From IMG/VR virus record IMGVR_UViG_3300025000_000394, positions 1 to 25,115 of that record: a stretch of DNA of 25,115 bases; one strand, given 5' to 3'. Position numbers and translations under genes: made by a program. Of this stretch, positions 9,564 to 23,894 are shown piece after piece. Numbering within the stretch: the first letter of the stretch is position 1; each line of letters begins with the position of its first letter. The notes beneath the pieces are model-generated. The model was not told the DNA's origin. It saw only the letters and a program-made list of their open reading frames with translations, and searched no databases. This DNA is from a virus.

Positions 9564-9941
9564 ATGGATTTTTATAATTGCAAAGTTCGCCTTGGCGGCA
9601 ACGTGCTGAATGAGGTTCGCCTGTCTGACGTTCCAGCCCCCGAAATCCTGATTCTCAAATACATCCACGGTGGTGACGCAGTGGTGGAATTGGAGAAGAG
9701 CAAGGGCGGCCAGATCGAGCACGAGAAGGAGCGGGCCCGCCTGGAGGACAAGTATGGTCTTGTCCTGGCCAAGCGGGAACTGACCTTGAACGCGATTTTC
9801 GGGCCGCCGCACCAGGATCTCCCGATCCATGTGAACGGTGGCAAGGCGGCGGCTGACGACGGCCGGCGCAAGCGGACCCGGGCGCCGATGCCCGACGAGA
9901 TCGCCGAGACCGGCGAGGAATCCGCCAGCATCCTCGGATAG
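9564..9941 (+). CDS. conserved phage protein of unknown function next to head completion genes
   Basis: This encodes 125 residues from ATG 9564, with AAAGGA at 9549-9554. The first 70 residues are a compact domain starting DFYNCKVRLGGNVLNEV, with IHGGDAVVELE and a charged helix. The C-terminal 40 residues are Gly-, Arg- and Pro-rich and look disordered. Similar small proteins occur, as I recall, before adaptor genes in other podovirus-like genomes, which would fit a head-completion or assembly role. No enzymatic motif or membrane segment is visible. The next gene follows after 12 bases with its own GGGAG site. Confidence 0.55.
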   Translation: MDFYNCKVRLGGNVLNEVRLSDVPAPEILILKYIHGGDAVVELEKSKGGQIEHEKERARLEDKYGLVLAKRELTLNAIFGPPHQDLPIHVNGGKAAADDGRRKRTRAPMPDEIAETGEESASILG

Positions 9942-9953
9942 TGGGAGAGTTGA

Positions 9954-10652
9954 ATGGCCCGGGGTACGCAACTGCAATCGCTGGTTAGCCAGCTCCGGGC
10001 CGAGACTCGCGACAGCTCCAAGGTCTCGGTCGGCACCGATGCTGAGGATAATCTGAAGCAAATCCTGCGGCGCACGCAGGAAACGCTCTATGACGACCAC
10101 GACTGGAAATTCCTTCAATTCTATGTCTCGAAGGACCTGGCGGCCGGGCAGCGGTACTACGACATGCCCGATGGGCTCTCCGACGCGCGTATCACCGATG
10201 TCGCTGTCGAGTGGAGCGGCGAGCCCTACCCGATCGAGCAAGGCATTGGTTTCCAGGAATACGCTGAATACGACAGTGATGGCGACGAGCGGTCGGAGCC
10301 TGCCTTGCGCTGGGACTGGCGGCGTACGAGCGAGACGGCTACGCAGATCGAGGTGTGGCCGATTCCCTCGACCAACACGCAGAAACTTTGGTTCCGGGGC
10401 ATTCGTAACCTCAACCCTCTGGTGGCGAACACCGACCGGGCGACCCTTGACGACACACTGATTGTGCTTTTCTCCGCCGCCGAGATCCTGGCGTCGCGTG
10501 ATGCCAAGGACGCCAAACTGAAGCTGGCCGCGGGCCAGGGGCGGTTGGCGTCGCTGCTCAAGCAAACGTCAGGGCTGCATCAGCCTTTCGCCATTGGCGG
10601 CGGGGATGCTCGGCGTTCGATGCGCGGGCACACGATCATTCGGGTGCGCTGA
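9954..10652 (+). CDS. head-tail adaptor protein (T7 gp11-like tail tubular protein A type)
   Basis: This encodes 232 residues from ATG 9954, with GGGAG at 9943-9947. The adaptor ring sits under the portal and joins it to the tail nozzle. The protein matches my memory of phage adaptor proteins: an N-terminal helical segment with QLRAETRDSSKVSVGTDAED, then ILRRTQETLYDDHDWKFLQ, a central beta region with QRYYDMPDG and QIEVWPIPS, and a C-terminal helix AAEILASRDAKDAKLKLAAG. Size and position, directly before the large nozzle gene, support it. Its stop abuts the next ATG (10653), so the two are probably translationally coupled. Confidence 0.8.
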   Translation: MARGTQLQSLVSQLRAETRDSSKVSVGTDAEDNLKQILRRTQETLYDDHDWKFLQFYVSKDLAAGQRYYDMPDGLSDARITDVAVEWSGEPYPIEQGIGFQEYAEYDSDGDERSEPALRWDWRRTSETATQIEVWPIPSTNTQKLWFRGIRNLNPLVANTDRATLDDTLIVLFSAAEILASRDAKDAKLKLAAGQGRLASLLKQTSGLHQPFAIGGGDARRSMRGHTIIRVR

Positions 10653-13043
10653 ATGAGCTACGTCGTCGTCAAGAACTTTAAAGCGGGTCTGGACCGGCGC
10701 GGGTCGCAGGTTGGCGGCGACCCCGGCTCGTTGTGGGATGCCTGCAACGTGCTGATCAACCGCAAGGGGGAGATCGAGCGGCGCAAGAAGTTCGTTTCAA
10801 CGTATACCCTGCCGGCCGACACTTTTGGCATGCATGCGACTGGCTCGACGTTGCGGGTGTTCGGTTCCGCCGCGGCGCCCGTCGTGCCCTCGGGGGTGGC
10901 CTACCAGCGTCTTCAGCACCCCGACGGATCCACGGCGATGTCCAAAGTGTTGTCGGCCGAGAACTTCGATGGCAAGCCTTACGTCGTGGCGAAATTCGCC
11001 GACAACGGGGTGTACCATTTTTATGATGGTGCGTTGGTGCCCGACTGGTACGTCGGCATTGTGCGCGCGGATATGACCAACAACGACGGTATCGCCGAGC
11101 ACCTGAAGGCGCTGATCGACGCCAGCGCGGATTATAGCGCGACGCGATCGGGTGCGGTGATTACGGTGACAGGAGCCGCGAACGTCGCTTTCGATACCGA
11201 GACATCGGTCGAGAACGGCGGCGCGACGGACAACCAGGCGATTGCCACGGCGACCACGCAGACGGCGGTCGAGGATGTGATCGAAGTACGGGCGACCGGC
11301 GCAGTAACGGTGACCGCCGGAGCGTCGGCAACGGCGGCGACAGGCTCAGTAGAGCTAACGGGTGGGGCTTCGGGCAGTGTCGACAGCGTCACGGTCAACG
11401 GGGTCACGGTCACCAGTGGGGCCGTGCCATTCAACAGTTCCCTGGACCAGACAGCGACGGATTTGGCCGCTAACATCACGGCGCACACGTCGAGCCCGGA
11501 GTATACGGCCGCGGCGGTCGGCGCCGTTGTCACGATCAGCGCGGCGGCATCGGCCGGCGCGGCGCCCAACGGGTACGTCGTCGCGTCGTCGGTGACTACG
11601 ATCACCAAGACGGATGTCAACATGGCGAGTGGCGCCAATAAAGGGATATCCTCCGTCAAGGCCGATGGCGTCGAGGTGTTGGGCGCGCAGGTCAACTACA
11701 CGACCAGCAACTCGATTCTGGCCGCCGCCCTGGCGGCGCAGATCAACACTTACACGTCGAGCCCCGAATACTCGGCCACCGCCTCCGGGCCAACGGTGAC
11801 TATTCGTGCGGCGGCAGGCACCGGCGACGGCCTAAATGGCGCGCTGGTGGCGGTGACCGCGGACAGCGGTGTCACGGCGACAACGGCCAACATGGCGGGC
11901 GGCGTGGACGCCGTGACTGGCCAGCCGCAGAAAAACACGTTTACGATCAGCGGTACATTCGAGGTGGGCGACAAGTTCAATGTTGCCCTGGGTGACGAGA
12001 GTTTCGGCTACGTCGGGAATCCGCTGGTGCGCGGTGCTCAGTTGTTGACGCACAAGGCGAAGATGTACACCGTCTCTGGCAGTCTGGCGCAGTTCTCCGG
12101 TGTCAACAACGCGGCGTCATGGAATCGCGACAGCGTCGAGTATCCGGGTGCCAACTACATCAATCTGGCCAGCCAGGACGAAGGTTCGCAGACGCTTTAC
12201 GGGCTGGGGCAGTATCAAGGCAACCTTGCCTTTTTCGCGCGCAATGCGGTGCAGGTGTGGGCCATTTTCGCCGACGAGGATAGCAATACGCTACTGCAGA
12301 CCCTCAAGAACACCGGCAGCCGTTCGGGTGGCACGATCCTCGGATATGGCAACGACGATCTGTTCTACTACGCCGATTCCGGGTTCCGTTCGCTGCGGGC
12401 CCGGGACAGCAGCAACGCCGCTTACGTCAACGACGTGGGCACAGCGATCGATCCGTTTGTCAAGGAGTACGCCAAGACGCTGACGGATGCGCAGATCGAG
12501 GACGCGATAGCGGTGCTGCAGCCGGATGATGATCGGTATTGGGCGGCGTTGGGCACTAACCGGGTTTTTGTGTTCAACTACTTTCCGGGCTCGAAAATCA
12601 GCGCGTGGACCTATTTTGACACAACCGACGACGTCGGGGGGCAGATTACGGCTTGGGCGCGTATCGCCGAGAAGCTGTACGCCCGCGCCGGCGACACGAT
12701 TTTCCTCTACGGCGGATCTGACGGCGACACATACCCGGAGGACGATGAGGCGGTGGCGACGGTAGAGTTGCCTTTCCTCGACGCCGACCGGCCGGGGTCC
12801 GAGAAAACGGTGACAGGTGTGGGCCTGGGTTGCACCGGCCAATGGTTGGTGGCGCTCCTGGTCGAGCCGACCGACACCTCGGCGTACGTCACGATCGGTC
12901 GGTTCACGAAATCAAGTTTTAAGTCACCCGGCGGCGCGGGGGAGCACCGGACCACACACTTCGCGCCCAAGATGGTGTGCTCGCAGGCGGGCCCGGCGAC
13001 GTTGAACAGTATCATCGTGTTTCACAACGAGTTGAGCGAGTAG
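10653..13043 (+). CDS. tail nozzle protein (T7 gp12-like tail tubular protein B type) with inserted repeats
   Basis: This encodes 796 residues from ATG 10653, directly after the adaptor stop. The N-terminus (KNFKAGLDRRGSQVGGDPG, then a CNVLINRKGEIERRKKF stretch) and the C-terminal two thirds (YGLGQYQGNLAFFARNAVQV, a SGFRSLRARDSSN segment, an RVFVFNYFPGSKISAW segment) are typical of podovirus nozzle proteins, which form the end of the tail tube and anchor fibres. Between about residues 145 and 420 lies an Ala/Thr/Val-rich region with two clear copies of an 88-90 residue beta domain and a partial earlier copy, probably Ig-like domains pointing outward. The length is similar to T7 gp12. It is followed by the internal-protein block. 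Confidence 0.85.
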   Translation: MSYVVVKNFKAGLDRRGSQVGGDPGSLWDACNVLINRKGEIERRKKFVSTYTLPADTFGMHATGSTLRVFGSAAAPVVPSGVAYQRLQHPDGSTAMSKVLSAENFDGKPYVVAKFADNGVYHFYDGALVPDWYVGIVRADMTNNDGIAEHLKALIDASADYSATRSGAVITVTGAANVAFDTETSVENGGATDNQAIATATTQTAVEDVIEVRATGAVTVTAGASATAATGSVELTGGASGSVDSVTVNGVTVTSGAVPFNSSLDQTATDLAANITAHTSSPEYTAAAVGAVVTISAAASAGAAPNGYVVASSVTTITKTDVNMASGANKGISSVKADGVEVLGAQVNYTTSNSILAAALAAQINTYTSSPEYSATASGPTVTIRAAAGTGDGLNGALVAVTADSGVTATTANMAGGVDAVTGQPQKNTFTISGTFEVGDKFNVALGDESFGYVGNPLVRGAQLLTHKAKMYTVSGSLAQFSGVNNAASWNRDSVEYPGANYINLASQDEGSQTLYGLGQYQGNLAFFARNAVQVWAIFADEDSNTLLQTLKNTGSRSGGTILGYGNDDLFYYADSGFRSLRARDSSNAAYVNDVGTAIDPFVKEYAKTLTDAQIEDAIAVLQPDDDRYWAALGTNRVFVFNYFPGSKISAWTYFDTTDDVGGQITAWARIAEKLYARAGDTIFLYGGSDGDTYPEDDEAVATVELPFLDADRPGSEKTVTGVGLGCTGQWLVALLVEPTDTSAYVTIGRFTKSSFKSPGGAGEHRTTHFAPKMVCSQAGPATLNSIIVFHNELSE
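11085..11906 (+). repeat. internal protein-level tandem repeats in the nozzle gene
   Basis: Two copies of an 88-90 residue unit lie at about 11367-11636 and 11640-11906. Shared landmarks are SSPEYTA / SSPEYSA, VVTISAAA / TVTIRAAA, and NMASGA / NMAGGV. A shorter related segment at 11085-11222 carries ADYSATRSGAVITVTGAA. The DNA copies share the run ACACGTCGAGCCC near both SSPEY positions but have otherwise diverged. Confidence 0.7.
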
Positions 13044-13506: not shown

Positions 13507-14115
13507 ATGTGCCTGCCTTCTGCAAGTGTCCCGAAAGATAATTCCGCCGAGATCGCCCGCCAGGAGGAGGCCGCCCGCCAGGCGCGCATTACCGAAGGTG
13601 AGGCTAAGATCGGCGAGGCTTTTGGTCAGTTTGATGACCCTTTCTACGCCTCCCGTGAGAAGTCGTACACGGACTACTATTTCCCGCAACTGGAGGAACA
13701 GTACAACGACGCGCGGCGAAAACTGGTGCTGTCTTTGGCGGGTTCGGGCAACCTGAACTCGGGCTCCGGCGCCGGCGAGATGGCGGACCTGACGAAGGCG
13801 TTTGAGACGCAGCGAAGCACGACGGCCGGCAGCGCGCTCGACTTCGGTAACACGACTCGCAGCAACGTCGAGGCCGCCCGCCAGGAGTTGATCGCGCAGA
13901 ACCGGGCCGCCGCCGATCCATCGGCGGCCGCGTCGTCGGCCATGGCGCGTGCGGGCGTGCTTACCCCGCTGCCGGCGTTTAGTCCTCTGGGTGACATTTT
14001 CGCCAGCCTGATCAGCAGCGCGGCGATCCCCCTGGCGGCGGAGAGTAAGGGCTACCCGGGGTTCAAGACGGGGTTGTTCTCGGCGGACAGTTCCGCCGTG
14101 CGGACGGTGAAGTAA
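13507..14115 (+). CDS. probable internal virion / ejection-associated protein, Met-Cys start
   Basis: This encodes 202 residues from ATG 13507; ATG 13501 and 13504 are in frame but less well spaced. It starts MCLPSAS, then a helical charged stretch (EIARQEEAARQAR). A conserved-looking block follows with FGQFDDPFYASREKSYTDYY and a QLEEQYNDARRKLVLSLA segment, then a Gly/Ser-rich linker and an Ala-rich C-terminus with a mildly hydrophobic LGDIFASLISSAAIPLAA. Position between the gp13-like gene and a gp14-like gene suggests a virion-internal role. The cysteine at position 2 is not a lipobox. I cannot name a family. Confidence 0.6.
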   Translation: MCLPSASVPKDNSAEIARQEEAARQARITEGEAKIGEAFGQFDDPFYASREKSYTDYYFPQLEEQYNDARRKLVLSLAGSGNLNSGSGAGEMADLTKAFETQRSTTAGSALDFGNTTRSNVEAARQELIAQNRAAADPSAAASSAMARAGVLTPLPAFSPLGDIFASLISSAAIPLAAESKGYPGFKTGLFSADSSAVRTVK

Positions 14116-14832
14116 ATGTGCGATCCGATGATTGCCACGGGCCTCGCGTTGAACGCGGCTGGGACGGCGTACAGCGGTCAGCAGCAGGCCAAGAATGCCA
14201 AGAGGCAGGTCGCTGCCCGCAATGACACGGCGGAGGCGGAGCGTATTCGCCAGAAAGCGCACCAGGAGGCGGCGGCCGGCGTGTTCAACAAGTCGCTCGG
14301 CGAGTATCAAGGCGCGGAGCAGGCGAAGGGCGAGCGGCAGGCGGTGGACCGTCGAATGACGGCTGTCGATAAAGCGGCTGCCGAGACCAAGTCCGTTGGC
14401 CTGCCGACGGCGGGCAGCGCGCCACAGGTGGTCCGCGCGGAAGCCGCGCGTAAGATGGCCGGCGCCTCCGCGGACGCGCGGGCCGAGGCGTCGCGCGCCG
14501 CCAAGTTGGGCGGTTTCGGGGATCTGTTTTTCAACAACAGCCAAATGCTGACAGGCAACCGGTCGAAGTTGGGCACCATCGGCGATTTTTCGGCTCGGTC
14601 GGCGGGATTGCTGCCATACGAGCAGCAGGTGGCCGCCGCCAACGCCACGAAAGCGCCGGGCATGTTTGGAGACCTTTTGAAACTGGCGGGAACGGCCGCG
14701 ACGATATACGGCGCCACGGGAGGCAACTTCGGTAAAATCGCGGATATGTTCAGCGGCGGGGGTCATGCGCGGACGTTCGCGCCGGACAACGCCTCGTGGT
14801 CGACGATGCCCCACACCGGAAACATCTGGTGA
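14116..14832 (+). CDS. T7 gp14-like internal virion protein
   Basis: This encodes 238 residues; ATG 14116 directly follows the TAA of the preceding gene. The N-terminus (MCDPMIATGLALNAAGTAYS followed by GQQQAKNAKRQ) resembles internal virion protein gp14 of T7-like phages, which starts Met-Cys, has a short hydrophobic segment and then an Ala/Gln-rich helical body. Gp14-type proteins are ejected from the capsid and help form the channel across the outer membrane. The rest is Ala-, Lys- and Glu-rich helix, with a hydrophobic glycine-rich patch near the C-terminus (LLKLAGTAATIYGATGG). Similarity is by pattern and position, not measured. Confidence 0.65.
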   Translation: MCDPMIATGLALNAAGTAYSGQQQAKNAKRQVAARNDTAEAERIRQKAHQEAAAGVFNKSLGEYQGAEQAKGERQAVDRRMTAVDKAAAETKSVGLPTAGSAPQVVRAEAARKMAGASADARAEASRAAKLGGFGDLFFNNSQMLTGNRSKLGTIGDFSARSAGLLPYEQQVAAANATKAPGMFGDLLKLAGTAATIYGATGGNFGKIADMFSGGGHARTFAPDNASWSTMPHTGNIW

Positions 14833-14836
14833 TTCG

Positions 14837-16303
14837 ATGCCGACGATTGTCAACCCCTACGGCTACCAAACCCCGATCGGCTCCGCGCTTGGCCAGATGA
14901 TGGACGTGTTTTTGAAAGCGCCCGGCCCCGATGAGAAAGCGCTGTCGGCGGCCAAGCTGTCGACTCTGGAAGAGAGCCGACGGAAGACGCTGCTTGAGGC
15001 GGACGCGCTGCGTCGCAAACAAAAAGCGGGTGTGGACCTGTCGAGCCTGTTTACCGGTTTGCAGGGCCTGGCGACGGCGCCGTTTGTGTTCGCCGATACC
15101 AACGAGGGCGCGGTGGAGGGGGCGCAGGCGACGGCGCTTCCGCGGCGCAGGGACGAGATGCGCGCCGCATTGCCGGCTGCCGCGGGGCAGGCGGCCTCGA
15201 TCGCCGCCGGCGGGGGCGTCGACCCCAAGGACGTCGCCAACATGTGGCGCTTCTTCGTTGGCAACACCGGCATGGGCGGGGGCGAGGCCGGCGCGCGTTC
15301 TTTCCTCGGGGCTGGCGACGCGCTCGATCCCGGAAAGGCATACGCCGCCGAAGATTTGCAGCCTCTTCGGGATCAGGTCCAGGGTAACGAGATTTCCAAG
15401 ATCTTCGCCCGGCCGGTTGACACGGCGGCGGGTGCCGTCACCACGTTCGCGCCGGACGACCCGCGCGGCGGGCCGGTCTACGGCAGAGACACCGAGTCGA
15501 CGGCGAAGGCCGCTTTGGTCAACAAGGCGGCGGCCGGCGAAGATGTCAGCCCGATCGTGCGGGCGATGATTGGCGCCAACAGCGGTACGCCGCGCAACTA
15601 CCTGTCGGCCGACGGCACGCGCGGCATCACCTTGGACGGCATCACCGATTCGCAGAGCGGACAGCCGATTGCCGGCGGCTCGACGGTGTTCACCGGGCAG
15701 GTGCAGACCGGTACGCCGGGCGACCTGACCAAGTCGACCGTCACGGCGCTGCAAAAGGATGCGATCGGCATCCAGCGATTCAGCACCCTGCTCGATCAGA
15801 CGCGCGCCCTGGCGCAAAAAGACCCGAACAACTTTGGCCTGCCGGGCTTCGTCAAGGGTAAGATGCAAGACATGCAGGCGTTGACGGAGGGTATGGCCAC
15901 GGGGCTCGGGTATACCGGAGCCAACGAGGCAGCCGCCGAGCTGCGCGCCAAGATTACCAGCGATCCAAACCTCGATCCCGCGCTGTTCAGCGGTATCTTC
16001 GATCCCAGCCTGCCGGCGCTGGAAACGGCTTCCGACCTGCTGGTGTACTCGGCCGCCGAGGCGCTGGCCGGACAGTCGGGCCGGGGCATCTCCGACCGCG
16101 ATGTCAAGATCTTCAAAGACATCGTCGGCAATCCGCGCGACTTCCTGACATCACAGCAGCGCTACCTCGCCAAGTTGGACATCATCGAGCAGATCGTCAG
16201 CGGCCGGAAGAAGGTCATCGACAACGCGCTGGGCAAGGGAAAAGGTACGCCGCCCATCTCCACAGGCAACACGTCCGACGATGACCCGCTGGGGCTCCGC
16301 TGA
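14837..16303 (+). CDS. putative internal virion / DNA ejection protein (T7 gp15 position)
   Basis: This encodes 488 residues from ATG 14837, four bases after the preceding stop. The protein starts MPTIVNPYGYQTPIGSALGQ and contains an amphipathic helix with LSAAKLSTLEESRRKTLLEA. Long Ala/Gly-rich segments follow, with little hydrophobicity. Near residue 420-450 an SGRGISDRDVKIFKDIVG segment is followed by a YLAKLDIIEQIVSGRKK helix. Segments of the form 'GR(I)SDxDV' occur near the end of large ejection proteins of several podoviruses as far as I know. No enzymatic domain is visible. The function is inferred from gene order. Its stop overlaps the next start (TGATG at 16301-16305). Confidence 0.6.
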   Translation: MPTIVNPYGYQTPIGSALGQMMDVFLKAPGPDEKALSAAKLSTLEESRRKTLLEADALRRKQKAGVDLSSLFTGLQGLATAPFVFADTNEGAVEGAQATALPRRRDEMRAALPAAAGQAASIAAGGGVDPKDVANMWRFFVGNTGMGGGEAGARSFLGAGDALDPGKAYAAEDLQPLRDQVQGNEISKIFARPVDTAAGAVTTFAPDDPRGGPVYGRDTESTAKAALVNKAAAGEDVSPIVRAMIGANSGTPRNYLSADGTRGITLDGITDSQSGQPIAGGSTVFTGQVQTGTPGDLTKSTVTALQKDAIGIQRFSTLLDQTRALAQKDPNNFGLPGFVKGKMQDMQALTEGMATGLGYTGANEAAAELRAKITSDPNLDPALFSGIFDPSLPALETASDLLVYSAAEALAGQSGRGISDRDVKIFKDIVGNPRDFLTSQQRYLAKLDIIEQIVSGRKKVIDNALGKGKGTPPISTGNTSDDDPLGLR

Positions 16304-19290
16304 TGGCGACGCTTGCTGAAATCCGGCAGAAGTATCCGCAGTACAGCGACCTGCCCGATGCGGATCTTGCTGACCGGCTGTACCGGAAATTCTACGCCGA
16401 CATGCCGCGCGAGGAATTCGACGCCAAGGTCGGCTTGCAGACGCAGCCGGCCGCCGAACCGGAACCCAAGTCTCCGCTGGCCGATTCGTTTGCCGCGTTG
16501 GCCGCCGCAGGCAGGCCCCTTCCAACGAGGGACGCGGGGGACGTTGGCCGAGATTTGAAGATCGCTGTGCAAGGCGCAGGCCGGGGCATGGCCGATCTCG
16601 TCGGAATGCCGGCCGATTTATCAACAGGCGCGGCCAACCTTGCGCTGGGGACGGCGGACAAAGGGGGCCAAGGCGCGCAGTGGCTCCTGGAGGCCCTGCT
16701 GCCGGGTTGGGCAGAGAAGTACGTCCCGGATATGGGGGTCGACTACCGGTTCCAGCCGAGTCCGCTAGGCGCCGACTCCATCGCCGCCGGCGCCGATCTG
16801 CTGGCCAGCAAGGCGGGTGTCGAGACGGTTGAGCCCGAGCAGATGAGTCTTTTTGAAAAAACCAAGTACAACGTCAACCGCTTCGGTTCGCAGGCCGTGG
16901 TCGGTGGCGGGGGATTGGCCAAGGCCGCGATGAAAGAAGCGCCCGAGATGGCCGCCCGCGCGCCAAAACTCTTGGACGCATTTTTGATGCCCTACATCGA
17001 AAACGTGGGCAAGGCGCTCAAGGTCGACGCCGCGGCCGGTGCGGGTGCGGGCGTCGGCCTAACCGCCGAGCAGGCCGTCGTACCGGAGGACTCCTCCTTG
17101 CGGCCGATCGCCGATTTCATGGCGATGATGTTAGGCGGTGGTGGCGCGGCGACGGCGGCCTCGGCCGGCCGCTCGGCGGCGCAAACCGCTGGAAAAGTGC
17201 GGGGGTATGCTAACGACCGCGGAATCGACTATGTAAAAAATGAAAAAGGCCAGATGAAAGGCACGCCAAAAAGGATCGCGGATAGGGCCGCACGCTTTTT
17301 CCAGAATCAGGCGTCGGATGCGGACGCCGCTGTTGGCCGAATTGATCAGCGCGCGTCTGATGCGCGTTTTTATGGCGAGCCTCTGCCCACGGTGGGGCTC
17401 GCGTCCGACGACATCGGGCTTGTGGCCGCTGAAAAAGGGCTGCGGGTCAAGTACTCGAAGGATTTTGAGGAACGGGACCAGGCGCTGCGGACCTGGGCAA
17501 GTGAGAAAGTGGAGGGGCTGAACGACATCAGCGCGGACCCGACTAAGGCAACGGCTGAAGTTGGTAGGCAGACGGCGGTGAAACGCGACGCCGCCCAGGC
17601 AGAAGTGGATAATGCCGCGCAGAATACCGAGATGGTGGAAAAGTCGCGCGTGGCCGAGGGAGACAAGCTCGCGGCTAATCGCGATCCCACCGGGCAGGCG
17701 AGCGCGGACTTGTCCGAGGCGGTCGGCAAGACCAAGGAGGCCGATACCGCGAAGAAGGCCGGGCTGTACCGTGAGGCTGAGACCCTGGCCAAAGACGTCA
17801 AGGTCGATCCCTCGCCGCTGGCCGACGACGCCGTGGCGATCAAGGATGAAATCAGCAAGTTGGCCGGCCATTCGCCGGAACTGAACAACGTGCTCGACGA
17901 CCTGGCCCGGCTGGCACCGAAGGATGAGACCGTCGATACCGGGCTGCTGGATGCCACCGGAGCGCCGATCACCAAGGCCGCGCCGGTCGAGGATATCACA
18001 GCCGCCGACTTGATCGCCATGCGTCCCCGGCTGTCGCGTGCCCGTGACGCCGCCCGCAAACTGGTGCGAGGTGACGTGGTCGAGCGGCTGGATCGGGTCA
18101 ACGCCGGGCTGGTCAGCCAGTTGAACAAACTGGCCGACGGCGGCAACGCCGCAGCGCTCAAGTGGCAGGAAGCCGAAGCCAATTTCAAGAGCGACTTCGC
18201 GCCGAAGTACCGTGAGGGCGTGGGCGGCCAATTGGACAAGGCCGAGCGCGCCAAGACGCCGGTGCCGCCGTCGGCGATGGCTGGGCACCTCTTGAAGGCC
18301 GGCCCGGGGGGCAAGGAAGCCGCCGAGAACCTGCGCACCATTTTAAAGGGATCCCCTGTCGAAGCGGACGGGCTGGCTGCCGGCCGGAGGGTGCTTTTGG
18401 ATTGGGCGGCCGGCGTCGTCGGCGTAGACGGCAAAGTCAGCCCACACCGCTTTAAGATCTGGCGCGACAAGTACGCGGGGGCCATCGGGCAGATCCCCGG
18501 CCTCAAGGACGAAATTGACCAGGCGGTGCGCGCAGCGCGTGGCGGCGCGGACCTGGAAAACAAATTCCTGGGCGAACTCAAGGCCGCGCAGAAAGCACAG
18601 AAGATGACCGAGGAACAGATCCAGAAATCGGCCGCGGGCATTCTCTTGGATGAAGACCCGATCAAGGCGGCGACGCGGGTGCTTAACCTGGGGCCATACG
18701 AAGCGCCGAAGAAAATGGCGGAGATCGTTCGGCTGTTCAAAGACTCGCCGGAAGCGGCAAAAGGGTGGAAACAGGCCGTCGTAGAGCACATGCTGTTCAA
18801 GGTGCGGACCACCCGGCAGGGCGTCTCGGGTGACGCATCGGATCTGATGAAGTTCTTCGAACAGAACGAAAAAACACTGGCGGAGGTGTTCACCGGGGCG
18901 GGTGAGATGCACGCCCTGCACCGGGCGCAGAAAATGCTGGAGCCGTTGCGCAATCTTCGCCGTCAAGCGATTACGGGCTCGGCCACTTCTGAAAACGACA
19001 TGCTGTGGAACAGCGTCGAGGCCGGGCTGCTGGCGGTCACTGGCAATGCCATCACGGCAGGCATGATCATGAAGCGTGTCCGCGTCGCGTTGAAGTTCCT
19101 GCCGGATGAAGACGCGCAACTTCGGGAGTTCGTGAAGCGCGCGATGCTGGATCCCGACTTGGCAAAAATGCTGCTGACCCGAAAAGTCGCGGATATCAAC
19201 AATCCCGCATGGAATAAGAAGCTGACCCGCATTCTGGCGGCCGGTCAGGCGTCACGCGCCGACGCGGCGGAGAACGAAGAACAGCCTTGA
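16303..19290 (+). CDS. large putative DNA ejection protein (T7 gp16 position)
   Basis: This encodes 995 residues from ATG 16303, overlapping the previous stop. The N-terminal 45 residues (LAEIRQKYPQYSDLPDADLA, then KFYADMPREEFDAKVG) form a small helical motif common at the start of large phage virion proteins. Downstream come a Gly/Ala-rich possibly membrane-interacting stretch (about 245-300), a long charged coiled-coil-like region (about 370-640), and helical C-terminal domains. No lytic transglycosylase catalytic motif of the T7 gp16 kind was seen, so peptidoglycan crossing may rely on another protein. The largest protein of the window, it closes the internal-protein block and is followed by the palindrome at 19315. 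Confidence 0.65.
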   Translation: MATLAEIRQKYPQYSDLPDADLADRLYRKFYADMPREEFDAKVGLQTQPAAEPEPKSPLADSFAALAAAGRPLPTRDAGDVGRDLKIAVQGAGRGMADLVGMPADLSTGAANLALGTADKGGQGAQWLLEALLPGWAEKYVPDMGVDYRFQPSPLGADSIAAGADLLASKAGVETVEPEQMSLFEKTKYNVNRFGSQAVVGGGGLAKAAMKEAPEMAARAPKLLDAFLMPYIENVGKALKVDAAAGAGAGVGLTAEQAVVPEDSSLRPIADFMAMMLGGGGAATAASAGRSAAQTAGKVRGYANDRGIDYVKNEKGQMKGTPKRIADRAARFFQNQASDADAAVGRIDQRASDARFYGEPLPTVGLASDDIGLVAAEKGLRVKYSKDFEERDQALRTWASEKVEGLNDISADPTKATAEVGRQTAVKRDAAQAEVDNAAQNTEMVEKSRVAEGDKLAANRDPTGQASADLSEAVGKTKEADTAKKAGLYREAETLAKDVKVDPSPLADDAVAIKDEISKLAGHSPELNNVLDDLARLAPKDETVDTGLLDATGAPITKAAPVEDITAADLIAMRPRLSRARDAARKLVRGDVVERLDRVNAGLVSQLNKLADGGNAAALKWQEAEANFKSDFAPKYREGVGGQLDKAERAKTPVPPSAMAGHLLKAGPGGKEAAENLRTILKGSPVEADGLAAGRRVLLDWAAGVVGVDGKVSPHRFKIWRDKYAGAIGQIPGLKDEIDQAVRAARGGADLENKFLGELKAAQKAQKMTEEQIQKSAAGILLDEDPIKAATRVLNLGPYEAPKKMAEIVRLFKDSPEAAKGWKQAVVEHMLFKVRTTRQGVSGDASDLMKFFEQNEKTLAEVFTGAGEMHALHRAQKMLEPLRNLRRQAITGSATSENDMLWNSVEAGLLAVTGNAITAGMIMKRVRVALKFLPDEDAQLREFVKRAMLDPDLAKMLLTRKVADINNPAWNKKLTRILAAGQASRADAAENEEQP

Positions 19291-19314
19291 CACTCTTGTC
19301 GGCTTTGTGAGAAG

Positions 19315-19334
19315 TTGTAGGAAGTTTCCTACAA
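19315..19334. promoter_or_regulatory. perfect 20-bp palindrome, candidate operator
   Basis: TTGTAGGAA and TTCCTACAA flank a GT centre (19324-19325). It is a perfect inverted repeat placed 3 bases before the GGAGG of the next gene. A TTGACA hexamer overlaps the upstream stop (19287-19292), but no -10 box stands at standard spacing. No T-run follows, so it is not a terminator. It could be a protein-binding operator or an RNA hairpin near the ribosome binding site. Confidence 0.6.
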
Positions 19335-19337
19335 ATC

Positions 19338-19342
19338 GGAGG
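19338..19342 (+). promoter_or_regulatory. GGAGG ribosome binding site fixing a TTG start
   Basis: A consensus GGAGG is followed after 6 bases by an in-frame TTG (19349). The longer frame beginning at GTG 19307 would run through the palindrome and has no such site. Confidence 0.7.
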
Positions 19343-19348
19343 CCGGCG

Positions 19349-21049
19349 TTGTCAACACCCCCCCTTTCGGAAGTCCTGGCCAAACAGGCGATTGACACTG
19401 TAAATGGAGCGCTGGCGGCTGGATTTCGTGCGTCCGGCAACGGGCGATCGCCAACCGCACCGGCGGAAGCGGCGCGCCGGCTTGGGCTTGATAGGGGTAC
19501 GTTTCGCCACCGGCTGCTGAGCGCCGAGCGCGTGCATGGTTTGGTACCCGACTGGCCGGATGCACAGATAAAGGAATCGGCGCTGTCCGGTTCCATCATG
19601 CCGGTGCAGTACGCGCCAGCGCCGCAGCCGATCCGGCCGACGGGAAAGCGTTACATCCTGACGAGCGCGCAGAACAACACGAAGGTCCATGATGCGGTGT
19701 GGGCCAACCTGCATGCGCTGGCCAAGCACTACGGCGCGCGGATCATGGTCAGCCGCTTCACCTACAACAAGGCGGCCTACGGCGCCAAGGCGGTAAAGCC
19801 GGGCACCAGCCAAGCGGCGGATTTCGACGACGCCTGGTATGACGAGCGCATCCTACCTTATGTCTGCGACGTGCGCCTCGAGATGGCCCCCGGCCTTGTC
19901 TTCTGTGGTGAAATGAACATCCTGCCGACCGCCGTGCGTCCGCTGTCGGGTTTGGAGAGCTACACCGGCCGACAATCCGGCATCTTCCCTCACCCGAAGT
20001 TCTCTATGGAGAGCGTCGCCAGCGGCAAGAACGAGGCGACCAAGTTCAACTGGACAACCGGCACGGTGACGCTGCGCAACTACCTCGGCAAGAAGGCCGG
20101 GCTCAAGGCGGAATTCCATCACGCCTACGGCGCGCTGCTGGTCGAGATCGACGACGCCGGCGAATGGTTCGTCCGCCAGCTCAACGCACGCGACTCCGAC
20201 GGCACCATCCACGACCTGGATGTGAAGGCCGAGGCGGGGGTGGTGACAACCGGCCACGCCGTCGAGGCGATCACCTGGGGCGACGTCCACCGCGAGCAGA
20301 TCGACCCTGAAGTGGAGCGGACCTCCTGGGGCGAAGGGGGCATGCTCGACACCCTACGGCCGCGTTTCCAGTTCATCCACGACCTGATCGACTTCCGGGC
20401 GCGCAACCATCATGAGCGCGACGATCCGCACCGTCGTTTCCAGCGCTTCATCGAGGGCACCGACGACGTCGAAGCGGAGTTCTCGCGGGCGGCGCGTTGG
20501 CTTTCCGAGACGGCGTATCGCGACTGGTGTTCAACGGTGGTGGTCGACTCCAACCACGACAACGCGGCGGAGCGCTGGCTGCGGGAGGCGGACTACCGCG
20601 GAGACCCGACGAACGCGCTCTTTTTCCTCGACGCCCAGCGGGCCAAGTACCGGGCGATCGCGGTTGGCGCCGTGAAGACGTTTCATCTGGTCGAATGGGC
20701 GCTGCGTGAGCGTGGCTGCCCGCCGGAGACCCGCTTCCTGCGCGAAGACGAGAATATGGTGATCTGCCCCGATGCGCACGGCGGCATCGAGTGCGGCATG
20801 CACGGCCATCTCGGCATCAACGGCCGCCGCGGCGCACCGGCGCAGTTCGTCAAGATGGGCCGCAAAGCCAACACGGCGCACACCCATTCGGCGGGCATCA
20901 TGGACGGCGTCTACACCGCCGGCAGTTCAGCCAACCTGGACATGCAATACAACGTCGGCCCGTCGTCGTGGTCGCACAGTCATATCGTCACCTACGTCAC
21001 GGGAAAGCGCGCGATCGTGACGATGTGGCGCGGCAAATGGCGCGCTTGA
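19349..21049 (+). CDS. helix-turn-helix plus metallophosphoesterase-like protein, possibly T5 A1-like
   Basis: This encodes 566 residues from TTG 19349, chosen because GGAGG lies 6 bases upstream. Residues 36-64 (TAPAEAARRLGLDRGTFRHR) look like a helix-turn-helix. From about 98 on the protein carries motifs of calcineurin-like metallophosphoesterases in order: WGDVH (310-314), SNHD (401-404, in place of GNHD), GMHGH (483-487) and AHTH (510-513, in place of GHTH). The first Asp-x-His motif is not obvious. Phage T5 A1, about 556 residues as I recall, is a metallophosphoesterase-type nuclease used in DNA transfer and host DNA breakdown. This protein may be related, which is an inference from motifs and length. 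A nuclease acting on host or incoming DNA is the most likely role. Confidence 0.6.
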   Translation: MSTPPLSEVLAKQAIDTVNGALAAGFRASGNGRSPTAPAEAARRLGLDRGTFRHRLLSAERVHGLVPDWPDAQIKESALSGSIMPVQYAPAPQPIRPTGKRYILTSAQNNTKVHDAVWANLHALAKHYGARIMVSRFTYNKAAYGAKAVKPGTSQAADFDDAWYDERILPYVCDVRLEMAPGLVFCGEMNILPTAVRPLSGLESYTGRQSGIFPHPKFSMESVASGKNEATKFNWTTGTVTLRNYLGKKAGLKAEFHHAYGALLVEIDDAGEWFVRQLNARDSDGTIHDLDVKAEAGVVTTGHAVEAITWGDVHREQIDPEVERTSWGEGGMLDTLRPRFQFIHDLIDFRARNHHERDDPHRRFQRFIEGTDDVEAEFSRAARWLSETAYRDWCSTVVVDSNHDNAAERWLREADYRGDPTNALFFLDAQRAKYRAIAVGAVKTFHLVEWALRERGCPPETRFLREDENMVICPDAHGGIECGMHGHLGINGRRGAPAQFVKMGRKANTAHTHSAGIMDGVYTAGSSANLDMQYNVGPSSWSHSHIVTYVTGKRAIVTMWRGKWRA

Positions 21050-21059
21050 GCGAGGCAGC

Positions 21060-21458
21060 ATGCAACAGCTTTTGAAATATGGGATCGTCGCCCTGGTCGG
21101 CATTGCCCTGGGGCTCATGATACTGGTGGGCGCGGTCAGCCAAGCGAGCCAAACGCCGAGCGCGGTATCCAACACCTGCCCCTCGATCACAATGGCGCAG
21201 GCACGCGAGCAGGCCGCCTTCGCCGGGATGCAGGTGATCGAATTGGATCCCGGCCAGATCACGCGCTTCATGAGCCACTGGAATGCCGCCGAACCGCCGA
21301 CGAGCCAGAAGGCCGACGCGATCTTCGTGGGTGTACACCCGTTGAACCCGGACGTGGTCGCGGTGCTGATCTTCTGGCGGGACTGCGCGGTCGGCACCGC
21401 CACCGGATCGAAAGCGGAGATCATGAACCTGACTGCGCTACCGGGACAAGGTGTGTGA
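21060..21458 (+). CDS. small membrane-anchored or exported protein
   Basis: This encodes 132 residues from ATG 21060, with GAGG upstream (about 21051). The N-terminus has one hydrophobic segment (ALVGIALGLMILVGAVS, about 11-27) after a short basic start, either an uncleaved signal anchor or a signal peptide. The rest is a small soluble domain with CPSITMAQAREQAAF and an IFWRDCAVGTATG end, with two cysteines that could form a disulfide outside the cytoplasm. It lies between the metallophosphoesterase gene and the lysis cassette, and its stop overlaps the holin start. I do not recognise the family. Confidence 0.55.
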   Translation: MQQLLKYGIVALVGIALGLMILVGAVSQASQTPSAVSNTCPSITMAQAREQAAFAGMQVIELDPGQITRFMSHWNAAEPPTSQKADAIFVGVHPLNPDVVAVLIFWRDCAVGTATGSKAEIMNLTALPGQGV

Positions 21459-21721
21459 TGCGCCTGATCGACGACTGGCGAGACGCCTACAAATTCTGGT
21501 CGGTGCGGGTCGGAGCCATCGGCGCGGTACTCATGGGCACCGTAGCCGCGTGGCCTGATGGAGCCATCATCCTTTGGAACTACATGCCGATCCAGGTGCA
21601 GACGCTTCTACCTGAGCGGCTGCTGCCGATCGCCGGCGTCGCGCTCTACGTGCTGGTGATCCTGTCGCGTGTCGTCAAGCAGGCCAAGCTGGAGAAAAAC
21701 AATGGCCAGCGCAAAGCGTAA
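21458..21721 (+). CDS. putative holin (two transmembrane segments, DUF7940-like)
   Basis: This encodes 87 residues from ATG 21458, one base overlapping the previous stop (TGATG), with AAGG at 21448-21451. The first residues (LIDDWRDAYKFWSVR) are followed by a first membrane segment (about 15-33), a short loop with PDGAIILWNYMP, a second membrane segment (about 56-73, PIAGVALYVLVILSR) and a strongly basic tail (KQAKLEKNNGQRK). This matches small phage holins of the DUF7940 type as I remember them. It lies directly before the endolysin, overlapping its start. It would form the lesion or depolarise the membrane that triggers SAR endolysin release. Confidence 0.75.
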   Translation: MRLIDDWRDAYKFWSVRVGAIGAVLMGTVAAWPDGAIILWNYMPIQVQTLLPERLLPIAGVALYVLVILSRVVKQAKLEKNNGQRKA

Positions 21722-22187
21722 GGTCGGCCTTGCGGCCGTCGTCGGTGGTGTCGCGGCGGCCATTCTCTACGTCGTGGTGCCGGATTTCGAAGGCACGGTC
21801 AACGTCGGATACACCGACATGGTCGGCATTCCGACCAAGTGCAGCGGGGACACGACGGACGTGGTCATCGGACGTCGCTACACCGACGCCGAATGTAGGG
21901 CCAGCCTGGAGACGCAACTAATCGCCCACGCGGCTCCGGTGCTCGATTGTGTGCCCCAACTGGCGGGCCACCCCTACCAAATCGCCGCCTCGGTCAGCCT
22001 CGCCTACAACATCGGCGTCGAGGCGTTCTGCAGGTCGACCGCCGCCGCTCGGTTCAGGGCCGGGGACTGGCGCGGTGCCTGCCGCGCCATCGAAATGTGG
22101 AACACGGCCGGGGGCCGCGTGGTCCCCGGCTTGGTCCGCCGCCGGGCCGAGGAACGGGCTCTTTGCGAAACGGAGATGCCGAAATGA
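21702..22187 (+). CDS. SAR-type endolysin, GH24 lysozyme
   Basis: This encodes 161 residues from ATG 21702, with GGAG at 21691-21694; the start lies inside the holin gene. It hydrolyses the glycan backbone of peptidoglycan. The T4-lysozyme-type catalytic triad has the exact spacing Glu-8-Asp-5-Thr: E30, D39, T45. A Cys and a SGDT segment follow. An Ala/Gly/Val-rich weak membrane segment (about 8-26) precedes the catalytic Glu, which is typical of a signal-anchor-release (SAR) domain. That allows export by the host Sec system and activation when the membrane collapses. The C-terminal half shows AYNIGVEAFCRSTAAARFR and EMWNTAGGRVVPGL, common to the family. Confidence 0.9.
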   Translation: MASAKRKVGLAAVVGGVAAAILYVVVPDFEGTVNVGYTDMVGIPTKCSGDTTDVVIGRRYTDAECRASLETQLIAHAAPVLDCVPQLAGHPYQIAASVSLAYNIGVEAFCRSTAAARFRAGDWRGACRAIEMWNTAGGRVVPGLVRRRAEERALCETEMPK

Positions 22188-22696
22188 TGGCGCTGTTCAA
22201 ACTCGCCGTCGGAGGCTGGAAGACGTGGGCCATCGCGGCGGCCGTCGTCGTTGCCGTGGCGATCGGCGCCTACGTCAAAGGCCGTGTGGACGGCGCCTCG
22301 ATCTGTGACGGCCGGCTGGCCACCGCCGCCGCCGAGTACGCCGAGGCCCGCGACAAGGCCGTTGCCGCGGCCGAGGCCCGACGCGTCGCCGTGGCCCGGC
22401 ACTTCGTCGAAATCGACGCCCGATACACCAAGGAGCAATCCGATGCCAAACTGGCGCTTGACGCTCTTCGCCGCGATGTTGCCGCTGGCCGTCGCCAGTT
22501 GCGGGTCGCGGCTCAATGTCCAGCCGCCCCCGGTGTGCCCGCCGCTGCCGGAAGTACCGGCCTGGGTGCTACAGCCTCCGCCCGATTGGAGGGGCCCGCT
22601 GAACAGGATTATTACACCCTCGTCGACCGTCTCACCCTGATGGAAGCGCAGTTGCGCGTCGCCCAGGAGGCGCTACTGAAAGAGCGCTCGCCGTGA
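22184..22696 (+). CDS. Rz: inner-membrane spanin (Rz-like)
   Basis: This encodes 170 residues from ATG 22184, which overlaps the endolysin stop (ATGA). GGAG at 22172-22175 serves it. One N-terminal membrane anchor (about 14-34, WAIAAAVVVAVAIGAYVKG) is followed by a long Ala/Arg/Glu-rich periplasmic coiled coil (DKAVAAAEARRVAVARHF), a Pro/Ala/Gly hinge, and a C-terminal helix with EQDYYTLVDRLTLMEAQL that is typical of Rz proteins. It joins with the lipoprotein encoded inside this gene to span the periplasm and fuse the membranes at lysis. Confidence 0.85.
   Translation: MMALFKLAVGGWKTWAIAAAVVVAVAIGAYVKGRVDGASICDGRLATAAAEYAEARDKAVAAAEARRVAVARHFVEIDARYTKEQSDAKLALDALRRDVAAGRRQLRVAAQCPAAPGVPAAAGSTGLGATASARLEGPAEQDYYTLVDRLTLMEAQLRVAQEALLKERSP
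22430..22435 (+). promoter_or_regulatory. ribosome binding site for the embedded spanin lipoprotein
   Basis: AAGGAG lies inside the Rz-like gene, 7 bases before ATG 22443 in a different reading frame. It supports separate translation of the embedded gene. Confidence 0.7.
22443..22640 (+). CDS. Rz1: outer-membrane spanin lipoprotein (Rz1-like), embedded in the Rz gene
   Basis: This encodes 65 residues from ATG 22443, fully inside the Rz-like gene in another frame, with AAGGAG 7 bases upstream. It shows a short signal peptide (WRLTLFAAMLPLAVASC) ending in a lipobox VASC with the lipidated Cys at residue 20. A proline-rich mature part follows (NVQPPPVCPPLPEVPAW). This is the classical signature of Rz1 o-spanins, which are anchored in the outer membrane and bind Rz. 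The longer open frame upstream (from 22251) is an Ala/Pro-rich shadow and is not used. Confidence 0.85.
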   Translation: MPNWRLTLFAAMLPLAVASCGSRLNVQPPPVCPPLPEVPAWVLQPPPDWRGPLNRIITPSSTVSP

Positions 22697-23004
22697 GATA
22701 CGCTGTTGCCCTCGACACCAGCCGGCCCGACAAGCCGCACGGCCTATTCGACAAAAAGGCGGGTATCTTCGTAGGGCATTTTCACAACATCGACCACGCC
22801 AGATTGACGGCGGAACTGTACGAGTATCTTGAACCGCTGGAGGCCCTGAAATGCCCCGCAAAAAGAGGGATCTCCCCTGGTGCGAATCCATCGGGGGCGT
22901 CTATTACATCCACTGGTACGACGCCGCCAAGCGGCGAACACAGCGCCTCTCTCTGCGTACGTCGGATGCTCGCGAAGCGCAGAATCGCTTTGCCGAATTC
23001 CTGA
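22693..23004 (+). CDS. small ORF overlapping the integrase start, unknown function
   Basis: This encodes 103 residues from GTG 22693, which overlaps the Rz stop (TGA 22694-22696). The first 52 or so residues look like a real small protein (DTSRPDKPHGLFDKKAGIF, HFHNIDHARLTAELYEYLEP). The rest runs 154 bases into the integrase gene in another frame and is low-complexity (Ser, Thr, Gly, Pro), as expected for a shadow. Either the protein has an overprinted C-terminus or an ancestral stop near 22850 was lost. The ribosome binding site is poor (GAAAGAG about 10 bases away). Function unknown. Confidence 0.45.
   Translation: MRYAVALDTSRPDKPHGLFDKKAGIFVGHFHNIDHARLTAELYEYLEPLEALKCPAKRGISPGANPSGASITSTGTTPPSGEHSASLCVRRMLAKRRIALPNS
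22839..22843 (+). promoter_or_regulatory. ribosome binding site fixing the integrase start
   Basis: GGAGG is followed after 7 bases by ATG 22851. It sits inside the small upstream ORF and supports an integrase that starts there, despite the long overlap. Confidence 0.7.
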
Positions 23005-23894
23005 CGCAAGGAGAGGACATCTACCGGCCGGCCGACGAAGCGGCGCTAACCTGCGACGCGGCGCTCGACTACTATCTCAAGGAGCATGTGCGAGGCGGCC
23101 AAGTCGTCGATGTCGTGCGTACCGAGAACAGGGTCAAGAACCTGCGGCGGCATTTCGGCCCGCTGCCGGTGGCCGGTGTCGACATCCCCGACTGCCGCGC
23201 CTACGCCGAGAAGCGCCGCACCGGTCTCTGCGGGCGCCCCGGCAACGACGGCACCATCAGAGGCGAGCTGGCCACCCTGCACGCGGCCATGGCACACTGC
23301 CTGAAATGGAAGCACTTCGCGGGGCCTGTGCCCTTTATCGAGAAGACGCCGGCGTCGGCGCCTCGAGAGCGCTGGCTGACGCATGATGAGCTGGCCCTCC
23401 TGCTGGCCACCTGCGTCGACGACACCCGCGTATGGGGATTCGTCCAGTTGGCCTACTTCACGGCGTCCCGTCGAGCCGCTTTGGAGGGGCTGACGTGGTT
23501 CCAGTGGAACGATGCCACGGATCGGATAAATCTGGCCCCGCCAGAGCGCCGCCAGACGCGGAAGAGGCGTCCGGTGGTGCCAGTGGACCCGGAATTGAAA
23601 CGCGCGCGTACGAGGCTGTGGCAGTCTTTTGGAGGCACCGGGTACGTGCTCGGTTCGCAGCGGCCGATTTACGCCGAATTCGTGGCTGTTTGCCAGCGGG
23701 CGGGATTGAAAAACGTGACGCCACACACGCTGCGGCACACAAGAGCAACCCATTTGCTACAGGCCGGAAAGTCTATTTGGACGGTCGCGCAGTTGCTTGG
23801 CGACGGTGTCGCCACCGTCGAGAAGAACTATGGCCATCACTGCGTCGACCACCTGGCCGACGCGATCGGGAACAAAGAAAGCAATGGGGTGTAA
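22851..23894 (+). CDS. int: tyrosine recombinase / phage integrase
   Basis: This encodes 347 residues from ATG 22851. It catalyses site-specific recombination between phage and host attachment sites through a tyrosine-DNA intermediate. The N-terminal 60 residues (VYYIHWYDAAKRRTQRLSLR) look like an arm-binding or beta-strand module, followed by a SAM-like core-binding domain (about 65-165) and the catalytic domain. Catalytic residues seen: box I Arg in TASRRAALEGLTW (R207), a basic hairpin around RKRRPVVPV, box II HTLRHTRATH (H292, R295), and the nucleophile in EKNYGHH (Y327). The usual second His/Trp after LLG is Asp (LLGDG, D318), a variant known in some integrases. It is the last gene of the plus-strand block and is followed by a terminator. 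Confidence 0.9.
   Translation: MPRKKRDLPWCESIGGVYYIHWYDAAKRRTQRLSLRTSDAREAQNRFAEFLTQGEDIYRPADEAALTCDAALDYYLKEHVRGGQVVDVVRTENRVKNLRRHFGPLPVAGVDIPDCRAYAEKRRTGLCGRPGNDGTIRGELATLHAAMAHCLKWKHFAGPVPFIEKTPASAPRERWLTHDELALLLATCVDDTRVWGFVQLAYFTASRRAALEGLTWFQWNDATDRINLAPPERRQTRKRRPVVPVDPELKRARTRLWQSFGGTGYVLGSQRPIYAEFVAVCQRAGLKNVTPHTLRHTRATHLLQAGKSIWTVAQLLGDGVATVEKNYGHHCVDHLADAIGNKESNGV

Follow-up and report, generated by a model that had tools for sequence, protein, structure and literature searches.

A T5 A1 homologue between ejection-type and lysis genes of a virus with an integrase gene, and the exchange of A1 for another helix-turn-helix phosphoesterase

Introduction

The A1 protein of phage T5 has long been known to be essential for the destruction of host DNA and for second-step transfer, and the locus described here raises the question of what a protein of this kind may do when its gene stands among the late genes of a phage that also carries an integrase. 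The gene occupies positions 19,349 to 21,049 of a viral DNA stretch of 25,115 nucleotides (IMG/VR record IMGVR_UViG_3300025000_000394, positions 1 to 25,115), which as a whole is referred to as the window, its virus being the window phage. An earlier note, made from the letters of the DNA, had described the product as a helix-turn-helix (HTH) joined to a metallophosphoesterase (MPE)-like nuclease. Publications are cited by their PMC numbers.

The reading developed below is a tentative one, possible rather than probable. The A1 family may be a tandem phosphoesterase, in which an HTH, a Vps29-like middle domain with a second functional site of its own (Q108, Y139, H215, T236-T237-G238 and H258) and a catalytic MPE domain would form a DNA-targeted nuclease module, exchanged for the unrelated HTH-MPE proteins of family phrog_284. 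Selection would keep the combination of HTH and phosphoesterase, not the particular gene, and the module would be silent in the late operon of the window phage.

Family membership and spread

By its sequence, the gene of the window is a homologue of T5 A1 and a new member of a widespread, known family, of which it is an ordinary representative. Its predicted product matches the profile phrog_1745 ('DNA transfer protein') with E 1.8e-185, residues 93-565 being aligned with positions 80-541 of the 542 in the profile, T5 A1 matches the same profile with E 8.5e-244, and the two proteins are 42.5% identical over residues 99-566. Up to E 1, one other profile was matched, weakly. The earlier note had written of a protein that recalls T5 A1; the kinship stands, and what was offered as a resemblance is better described as true homology.

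Relatives were found by tblastn in 1125 of 50,697 phage records, in 5 of 72,556 plasmid records and in 113 stretches of the viral collection, the best 80 of which were kept. The collection of bacterial genomes gave six A1 loci, including two partial matches in Pseudophaeobacter leonis (L088 and L089, residues 100-527 and 441-566), which lie on two contigs of one genome. Within the class of the genome behind locus L085, 5 of 385 genomes match A1, that genome counted and one match being weak. Among T7-like podophages, an A1 homologue of phage Palo has been published without a functional test (PMC7844081); the match spans 10891-12342 in a record of 46,322 bp and falls in a gene annotated 'hypothetical protein'. 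The A1 protein of the T7-like phage N37 has a weak match (E 0.011) to phrog_221, a profile of phage metallo-phosphoesterases; the 25 Pfam families listed for the A1 alignment include none of the MPE kind, and no MPE was found when the PDB was searched by sequence with the A1 profile.

Domain architecture

The whole protein was modelled with AlphaFold2 from an alignment of 26 sequences (pLDDT 84.0, pTM 0.79), and in this model its C-terminal domain has a calcineurin-like phosphoesterase fold. Structural alignment of residues from about 304 to 563 with VIA-align gave Z 12.9 for PolD DP1 (root-mean-square deviation, rmsd, 3.7; 201 residues aligned), 11.6 for LpxH, 10.6 for Mre11 and 10.1 for SbcD. 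Given that LpxH, at 11.6, scores among nucleases, the fold alone does not pick the substrate. A search of predicted viral structures ranked first a protein of Pseudomonas phage pf16 (E 6.2e-63), which is another relative of A1, and lower down several proteins named as calcineurin-like phosphoesterases. The earlier note had proposed an MPE fold and had named a different fold as grounds for giving this up; the C-terminal model is of the MPE kind, with Z from 10 to 12.9 to many members, and speaks in favour of the proposal.

The motifs that the earlier note had picked out are all present, at residues 310-314 (WGDVH), 401-404 (SNHD), 483-487 (GMHGH) and 510-513 (AHTH), and the predicted metal motifs are D312-x-H314, D345, N402-H403-D404, H485/H487 and H511-T-H513. 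What we take to be the canonical MPE scheme of five motifs (D-x-H, GD, GNH[DE], H and GH-x-H) is thus complete, with family-specific neighbours (D-V-H, HD345, SNHD, H485 and AHTH). Each motif starts 1-3 residues past a modelled strand (307-310 before D312/H314, 340-344 before D345, 394-399 before N402/H403, 480-482 before H485 and 507-509 before H511/H513), in the order that is canonical for MPEs. D312, H314, D345, N402, H403 and H485 are identical in all 86 aligned sequences, T5 included, and H513 is conserved in 84, in a set made of 92 rows less six (five partial and one duplicate) that includes the window phage's own copy and near-duplicates and in which a few truncated rows remain; H511 is replaced by D in 4 of 26 members. 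SNHD and AHTH, which had been described as altered forms, proved to be family-wide, S401 occurring in 25 of 26 members and position 510 being A or G in all 26.

The region ahead of this domain, where the earlier note with its single MPE region had overlooked any further one, is suggested by its model to be a second MPE-like, Vps29-like fold in the A1 family. Modelled alone, residues 87-305 reached pLDDT 84.2 and pTM 0.85, and VIA-align placed Vps29 first (Z 9.3, rmsd 3.2, 146 residues aligned with a target of 184), the first 12 rows being all Vps29, followed by a bacterial MPE (7.8), YfcE (7.5), purple acid phosphatase (7.5), LpxH (7.2) and Mre11 (7.1). As the best Z of models with no clear match is typically 7 to 8, the match is only moderate. 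Foldseek gave none at E <= 0.001 for this domain; its top 14 rows span E 4.4e-3 to 0.11, and 13 of them are what we take to be MPE-fold proteins (Vps29, B-subunits of DNA polymerases delta and zeta, SMPDL3B and GAP50). Profile comparison of the middle and C-terminal domains saw no internal duplication (probability 0.5%), so that it is the fold, and not a sequence link, that carries the tandem reading.

The middle domain is devoid of the usual ligands, with SAQNN or SAQDD where D-x-H would be expected, and has invariant residues of its own. These are, in 26 of 26 members, T105, Q108, Y139, C186, E188, T194, P198, H215, T236-T237-G238 and H258; in the set of 86, Y139 is kept in 86, Q108, T194, P198, T237, G238 and H258 in 85 each and H215 in 82, and C186 and E188 are absent from the list of residues above 95%. 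An A1 homologue at 9782-12415 of locus L074 is longer by some 295 residues, inserted in frame immediately behind the HH that corresponds to 257-258. The insertion starts with Cys and ends with Asn before Cys, which we take to be intein hallmarks, and has no match in Pfam at E 0.01. Inteins favour functional sites, and the place of this intein-like insertion is a hint against reading the middle domain as a dead remnant.

The N-terminal region is the most variable part of the family. The HTH that had been placed at about residues 36-64 agrees with model helices 37-44 and 49-63 and with matches in relatives: in the window protein alone the match is weak (E 0.018, under the Pfam cut-off), and among 26 members, at E <= 0.1, HTH_30 is found in 11 (best 7e-7) and HTH_8/Fis in 7 (best 2.3e-7). 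In some members, such as those of the Rhodobacter phage RcRudolph (L082), where A1 follows tail genes, and of N37 (L090), it seems shortened or absent. The union of HTH and A1 is not a novel fusion, given that the HTH profile matches many members and that an N-terminal TyrR-like HTH was reported in 2012 for the A1 homologue of phiCbK (PMC3556154).

Exchange of A1 for phrog_284 phosphoesterases

In two phage lineages, A1 is swapped at the same locus for a different HTH-phosphoesterase, of family phrog_284, and these two are the firm cases. The first lineage is that of the window phage, to which L101 is related through its major head protein (69% identity), ejection-type protein (41%), integrase (37%) and endolysin (44% over 62 amino acids, aa). 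In the A1 slot, L101 has an open reading frame (ORF) of 131 aa and a protein of 427 aa (13615-14898), which matches phrog_284 'exonuclease' with E 1.3e-42 and, weakly, HTH_8 and Metallophos_2 (E 0.022 each). The second lineage is T7-like. N37 has the order DnaB, A1, gene 16, pyrophosphohydrolase-like gene, gene 18, ligase, gene 20 and PolA, and L115 the order DnaB, phrog_284, deoxyribosyltransferase, pyrophosphohydrolase-like gene, small ORFs and PolA, with identities of 52% for DnaB, 57% for the pyrophosphohydrolase-like protein, 57% for PolA and 46% for the exonuclease. In ParKuw1, DnaB is followed by an ORF, A1, a deoxyribosyltransferase, an ORF, a kinase, a ligase, further ORFs and a polymerase.

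A looser parallel is offered by L086, in which an endolysin, an 83-aa ORF, A1, a 206-aa ORF and a kinase-like gene follow one another (phrog_139 E 2.3e-8, the better match being to an unknown family), and L111, in which an endolysin and small ORFs precede phrog_284 and a deoxynucleoside monophosphate kinase (E 4.9e-35); the endolysins are 39% identical, and the kinases have no mutual match at E 1e-3. The podovirus ct7QV12, with an integrase and a repressor, carries a phrog_284-type gene 36.9% identical to that of L101, preceded by an injection-protein gene, a hypothetical gene and 1.2 kb of unannotated DNA and followed by a chitinase-named gene, taken as a lysis gene. Kinship of ct7QV12 with the window phage was not shown, as none of the eight other proteins tested matches those of the window or L101 at E 1e-3, and the parallel is one of gene order only. 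Another relative, N65, has nothing between the ejection-type gene and the lysin. L109, which shares 42% identity with the window in the terminase and 46% in the portal, has its phrog_284 gene directly before the terminase gene and not at the A1 slot.

Both families combine an HTH with canonical MPE motifs at corresponding loci, whereas their MPE domains have no detectable sequence similarity (profile comparison probability 0.1%), and the phrog_284 proteins, annotated as exonuclease and in some members as 'DNA polymerase II small subunit', are shorter, the alignment suggesting no room for a second MPE-like domain. The shared HTH was considered as proof of domain shuffling and is weak as such: the whole-family profiles match in the HTH only, with probability 18.6%, and the A1 HTH profile, run against 1858 targets, reached E 4e-4 for L114, 2e-3 for ct7QV12, 0.015 for L109 and 0.97 for L101, some other proteins scoring equal to or above the phrog_284 members.

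No phrog_284 gene was found in 44 A1-bearing viral records selected from the best 80 (positive controls 3 of 3). A 43 kb contig (L093) with an identical A1 gene and flanking genes 99-100% identical, which is a copy of the window phage, has no phrog_284 match. In the other direction, phrog_1745 matched none of eight phrog_284 records in a search to which no control responded, and which shows no absence. Mutual exclusion of the two families was dropped as a statistic, since phrog_284 is uncommon and counts alone show little.

Neighbouring nucleotide-salvage genes

A1 genes lie near nucleotide-salvage genes more often than by chance. After dereplication, 25 of the 55 loci have a nucleotide-pool gene no more than three genes away from A1. 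Permutation with random centres drawn within the same loci gave 9.5 on average and in none of 1000 draws reached the observed count, many of the seeds being taken from A1 flanks. The analysis was repeated with two seeds from the far region of the window phage and five from the nucleotide cluster of RcRudolph (there downstream of A1), with RcRudolph dropped as a locus and edges corrected, and gave 12 of 40 loci within three genes against 4.8 and 10 of 40 within two genes against 2.8, each with 0 of 2000 draws as high; the A1 loci are partly related, so that the samples are not independent. For phrog_284, a salvage neighbour was found within three genes in 2 of the 6 loci kept (51 of 1000 draws as high), the gene of L113 being uncalled.

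Proposed function and alternatives

The most likely function, to which we give even confidence, is to degrade DNA in lytic growth as a metal-dependent nuclease that the HTH would direct to its substrate. It is favoured by the HTH, the two-metal motif set, the replacement by a family annotated as exonuclease and the nearness to salvage genes. The closest folds to the C-terminal domain include phosphoesterases that act on DNA, namely the proofreading exonuclease PolD DP1, Mre11 and SbcD; T5 A1 is described as essential for host DNA degradation (PMC13250531), and a meeting report labels it a putative DNase (PMC7232257). In such a mechanism, the C-terminal site would be a metal-dependent DNA phosphodiesterase, probably with Mn2+, the HTH would bring the protein to DNA, and the middle domain may serve for scaffolding or as a binding partner, as Vps29 and DNA polymerase B-subunits do. 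In the lytic phase the protein would degrade DNA, chiefly that of the host, and the phage would reuse the products, while the location between ejection-type and lysis genes would keep A1 silent in the lysogen.

Several observations weigh against this function. Foldseek with the whole model gave no PDB match at E <= 0.001, the best being PolD DP1 with E 9.3e-3. For T5 A1, no nuclease activity had been reported as of 2021 (PMC8541194), and binding to RNA polymerase has been (PMC8541194, PMC3556154). The salvage categories were picked after the A1 flanks were viewed, with several seeds from those flanks, and within one gene of A1 the signal vanishes in the repeat (2 of 40 loci against 1.45, 854 of 2000 draws as high); in the window phage itself, lysis genes and not salvage genes adjoin A1.

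Among the alternatives, the foremost, though unlikely, is a counter-defence enzyme whose C-terminal site would hydrolyse a nucleotide, cyclic or of another type, through which host immunity signals. A role on signal nucleotides has been put forward for T5 A1 orthologues on comparative grounds (PMC7824862), a mycobacteriophage phosphoesterase has been reported to evade immunity (PMC12287305), and LpxH-type phosphoesterases score nearly equal to nucleases, but the HTH and the host-DNA phenotype of T5 A1 would be left unexplained; that neither the A1 protein nor the phrog_284 protein of L101 matched any PADLOC model is a weak point, PADLOC being concerned with defence and not counter-defence. More doubtful is a transcription factor, in which the HTH and RNA polymerase binding would alter gene expression and the phosphoesterase domain would be secondary. 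This was favoured for phiCbK A1, where HHpred gave a TyrR-like HTH with 94% probability (PMC3556154), and a perfect palindrome in the leader of the window gene would suit it. Against it, it would be difficult without catalysis to account for six metal-site residues that are invariant in 86 of 86 sequences, conservation is lowest in the N-terminal region, which seems to be shortened or missing in the two members named above, and the palindrome lies upstream of 1 of 87 A1 genes, the window phage's own (4 of 435 random stretches in the control).

It is improbable that A1 is a virion protein, synthesised late and carried in the particle together with the ejection proteins to enter the cell along with the DNA; a late gene would then supply a pre-early function. 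The gene does stand directly after that of the 995-aa ejection-type protein and before the lysis genes, and a similar slot holds the phrog_284 protein in L101 and, by order, in ct7QV12; yet in 27 of 89 placed loci (not dereplicated) a DNA polymerase gene lies within six genes on either side, Lacusarx has its A1-like gene among the replication genes and not in the structural module, where 13 of its 16 virion proteins are encoded (PMC5648845), and no match to A2 was found in seven A1-bearing records or genomes, the 43 kb copy included (T5 positive), in a search by single-sequence query that may miss distant relatives and among records that may be fragments. The same proximity to DNA polymerase genes, which in 6 of the 55 dereplicated loci lie at most three genes from A1, would fit a DNA-end or recombination nuclease like SbcD and Mre11, serving phage replication or packaging and not host-DNA destruction, as would the closeness of the fold to Mre11, SbcD and PolD DP1. 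It is likewise improbable, given that no SbcC/Rad50-type ATPase (AAA_23, PF13476) was detected in the 43 kb copy, L101 or L115, three records that may be fragments (controls 14 of 14). The domain analysis singles out the residues that could be mutated in each of two distinct domains, and the phrog_284 replacement offers an independent enzyme to compare for the same activity.

Genomic context, gene start and leader

The features of the locus are collected in Table 1. In order, the genes are terminase, portal-type (a name taken from relatives 43% and 38.6% identical), major head, internal virion protein, the 995-aa protein, A1, a 132-aa ORF, holin, endolysin, spanin and integrase. The 995-aa protein has nothing better than E 0.22 in PHROG and is 40.6% identical to the L101 protein at the same place. 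The position between ejection proteins and lysis genes, already noticed earlier, was confirmed as that of a late module.

Table 1. Coordinates of the A1 gene, its parts and its neighbours in the window
Feature	Position	Strand	Basis
Ejection-type protein, 995 aa, upstream neighbour	16303..19290	+	named by position and size, no family match
Perfect 9-bp inverted repeat TTGTAGGAA-gt-TTCCTACAA, 20 bp in all	19315..19334	+	leader, just 5' of the Shine-Dalgarno-like site
Shine-Dalgarno-like GGAGG	19338..19342	+	6 nt 5' of TTG; read directly from sequence
A1-family gene, 566 aa, TTG start	19349..21049	+	phrog_1745 match, identity to T5 A1
N-terminal HTH, about residues 36-64	19454..19540	+	model helices; HTH_8 and HTH_30 matches in relatives
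Middle domain, residues 87-305	19607..20263	+	MPE-like fold in model, without canonical metal motifs
C-terminal MPE domain, about residues 304-566	20258..21046	+	fold matches, conserved motif residues
Holin, endolysin, spanin	21458..22696	+	phrog_1356, phrog_7, phrog_13
Tyrosine integrase	22851..23894	+	Pfam Phage_integrase E 9.1e-13; phrog_1 E 2.6e-40

The integrase suggests that the window phage is temperate, and A1 is not in a first-step-transfer or terminal-repeat position. With an integrase and no A2 or SbcC-type partner detected in its 43 kb copy, T5-style two-step DNA transfer by this phage is unlikely. A tie between the late A1 position and a temperate lifestyle was considered and is not supported as a rule: 16 of the 44 A1 records have an integrase domain, the frame that contains it being at least 345 aa long in 9 of these, and in five records without integrase (L005, L011, L013, L015 and L035) A1 comes soon after a tail gene of the gene transfer agent type. 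In the Rhodobacter phage RcCronus (L125), which has RepA and a plasmid-partitioning gene, an A1-like gene lies between tail-region genes and SSB.

The far part of the 43 kb copy encodes a primase/helicase, RuvC, an exonuclease, SSB, a DNA methyltransferase and a DNA polymerase, together with dATP/dGTP pyrophosphohydrolase-like and deoxyribosyltransferase-like genes. Its ORF at 7968-8549 matches both phrog_2252 ('endolysin; inhibits RNA polymerase') and phrog_801 (dATP/dGTP pyrophosphohydrolase), and the lysis label looks wrong; relatives of this ORF are near A1 in 12 of 55 loci. At 15012-15620, before the DNA methyltransferase gene, an ORF contains X codons, which are probably unread bases.

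The TTG start given in the earlier note was confirmed by the ORF and by the GGAGG ahead of it. An in-frame GTG lies upstream at 19307 with no visible Shine-Dalgarno sequence, and a simple gene caller placed the start at an internal ATG (19598); TTG is favoured because tblastn homology to L045 and L064 covers the protein from residue 1. The leader palindrome, which occurs once in the window, was considered as a conserved A1 operator and rejected, not being seen in relatives: it is present in 2 of 82 loci, both of them the window phage (L001 and L081), in none of 59 genomes from the family of the genome behind L084 and in three stretches among all viral contigs, one being the window phage. The fold of the leader RNA is unremarkable (z -1.23), no promoter-like sites were found near the A1 gene, and one terminator-like site near it lies on the opposite strand, shuffled sequences yielding as many or more.

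Comparison with known systems

Both A1 homologues of podophages and an A1 carrying an N-terminal HTH have been published before. In the open-access literature, covered mostly by titles and the beginnings of abstracts, neither a tandem-MPE reading of A1 nor its exchange with phrog_284 was found, and to that extent both are new; no A1 nuclease assay was found there either.

The C-terminal domain of the window protein is predicted to share its fold with PolD DP1, Mre11 and SbcD, at 9-14% identity in the rows listed, and the Mre11 and SbcD systems differ in that no ATPase of the Rad50/SbcC type was detected in the three A1 or phrog_284 records searched. Vps29, a eukaryotic retromer subunit, is a scaffold with an MPE fold; the middle domain of A1 appears to have the same fold, at 9% identity in the best row. 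Like the window phage, phiCbK and Palo carry A1 homologues outside the T5-like phages, and phiCbK shares the N-terminal HTH, while its A1 gene, unlike that of the window, is close to the DNA polymerase gene (PMC3556154).

Finally, the A1 gene of T5 belongs to the first-step-transfer DNA, as do A2 and dmp, whereas the window gene lies in the late module of an integrase phage in which no A2 was found. Nevertheless, the two proteins are homologous over residues 99-566, match the same profile, have the same metal motifs and both carry a leader of about 100 residues ahead of the shared region.

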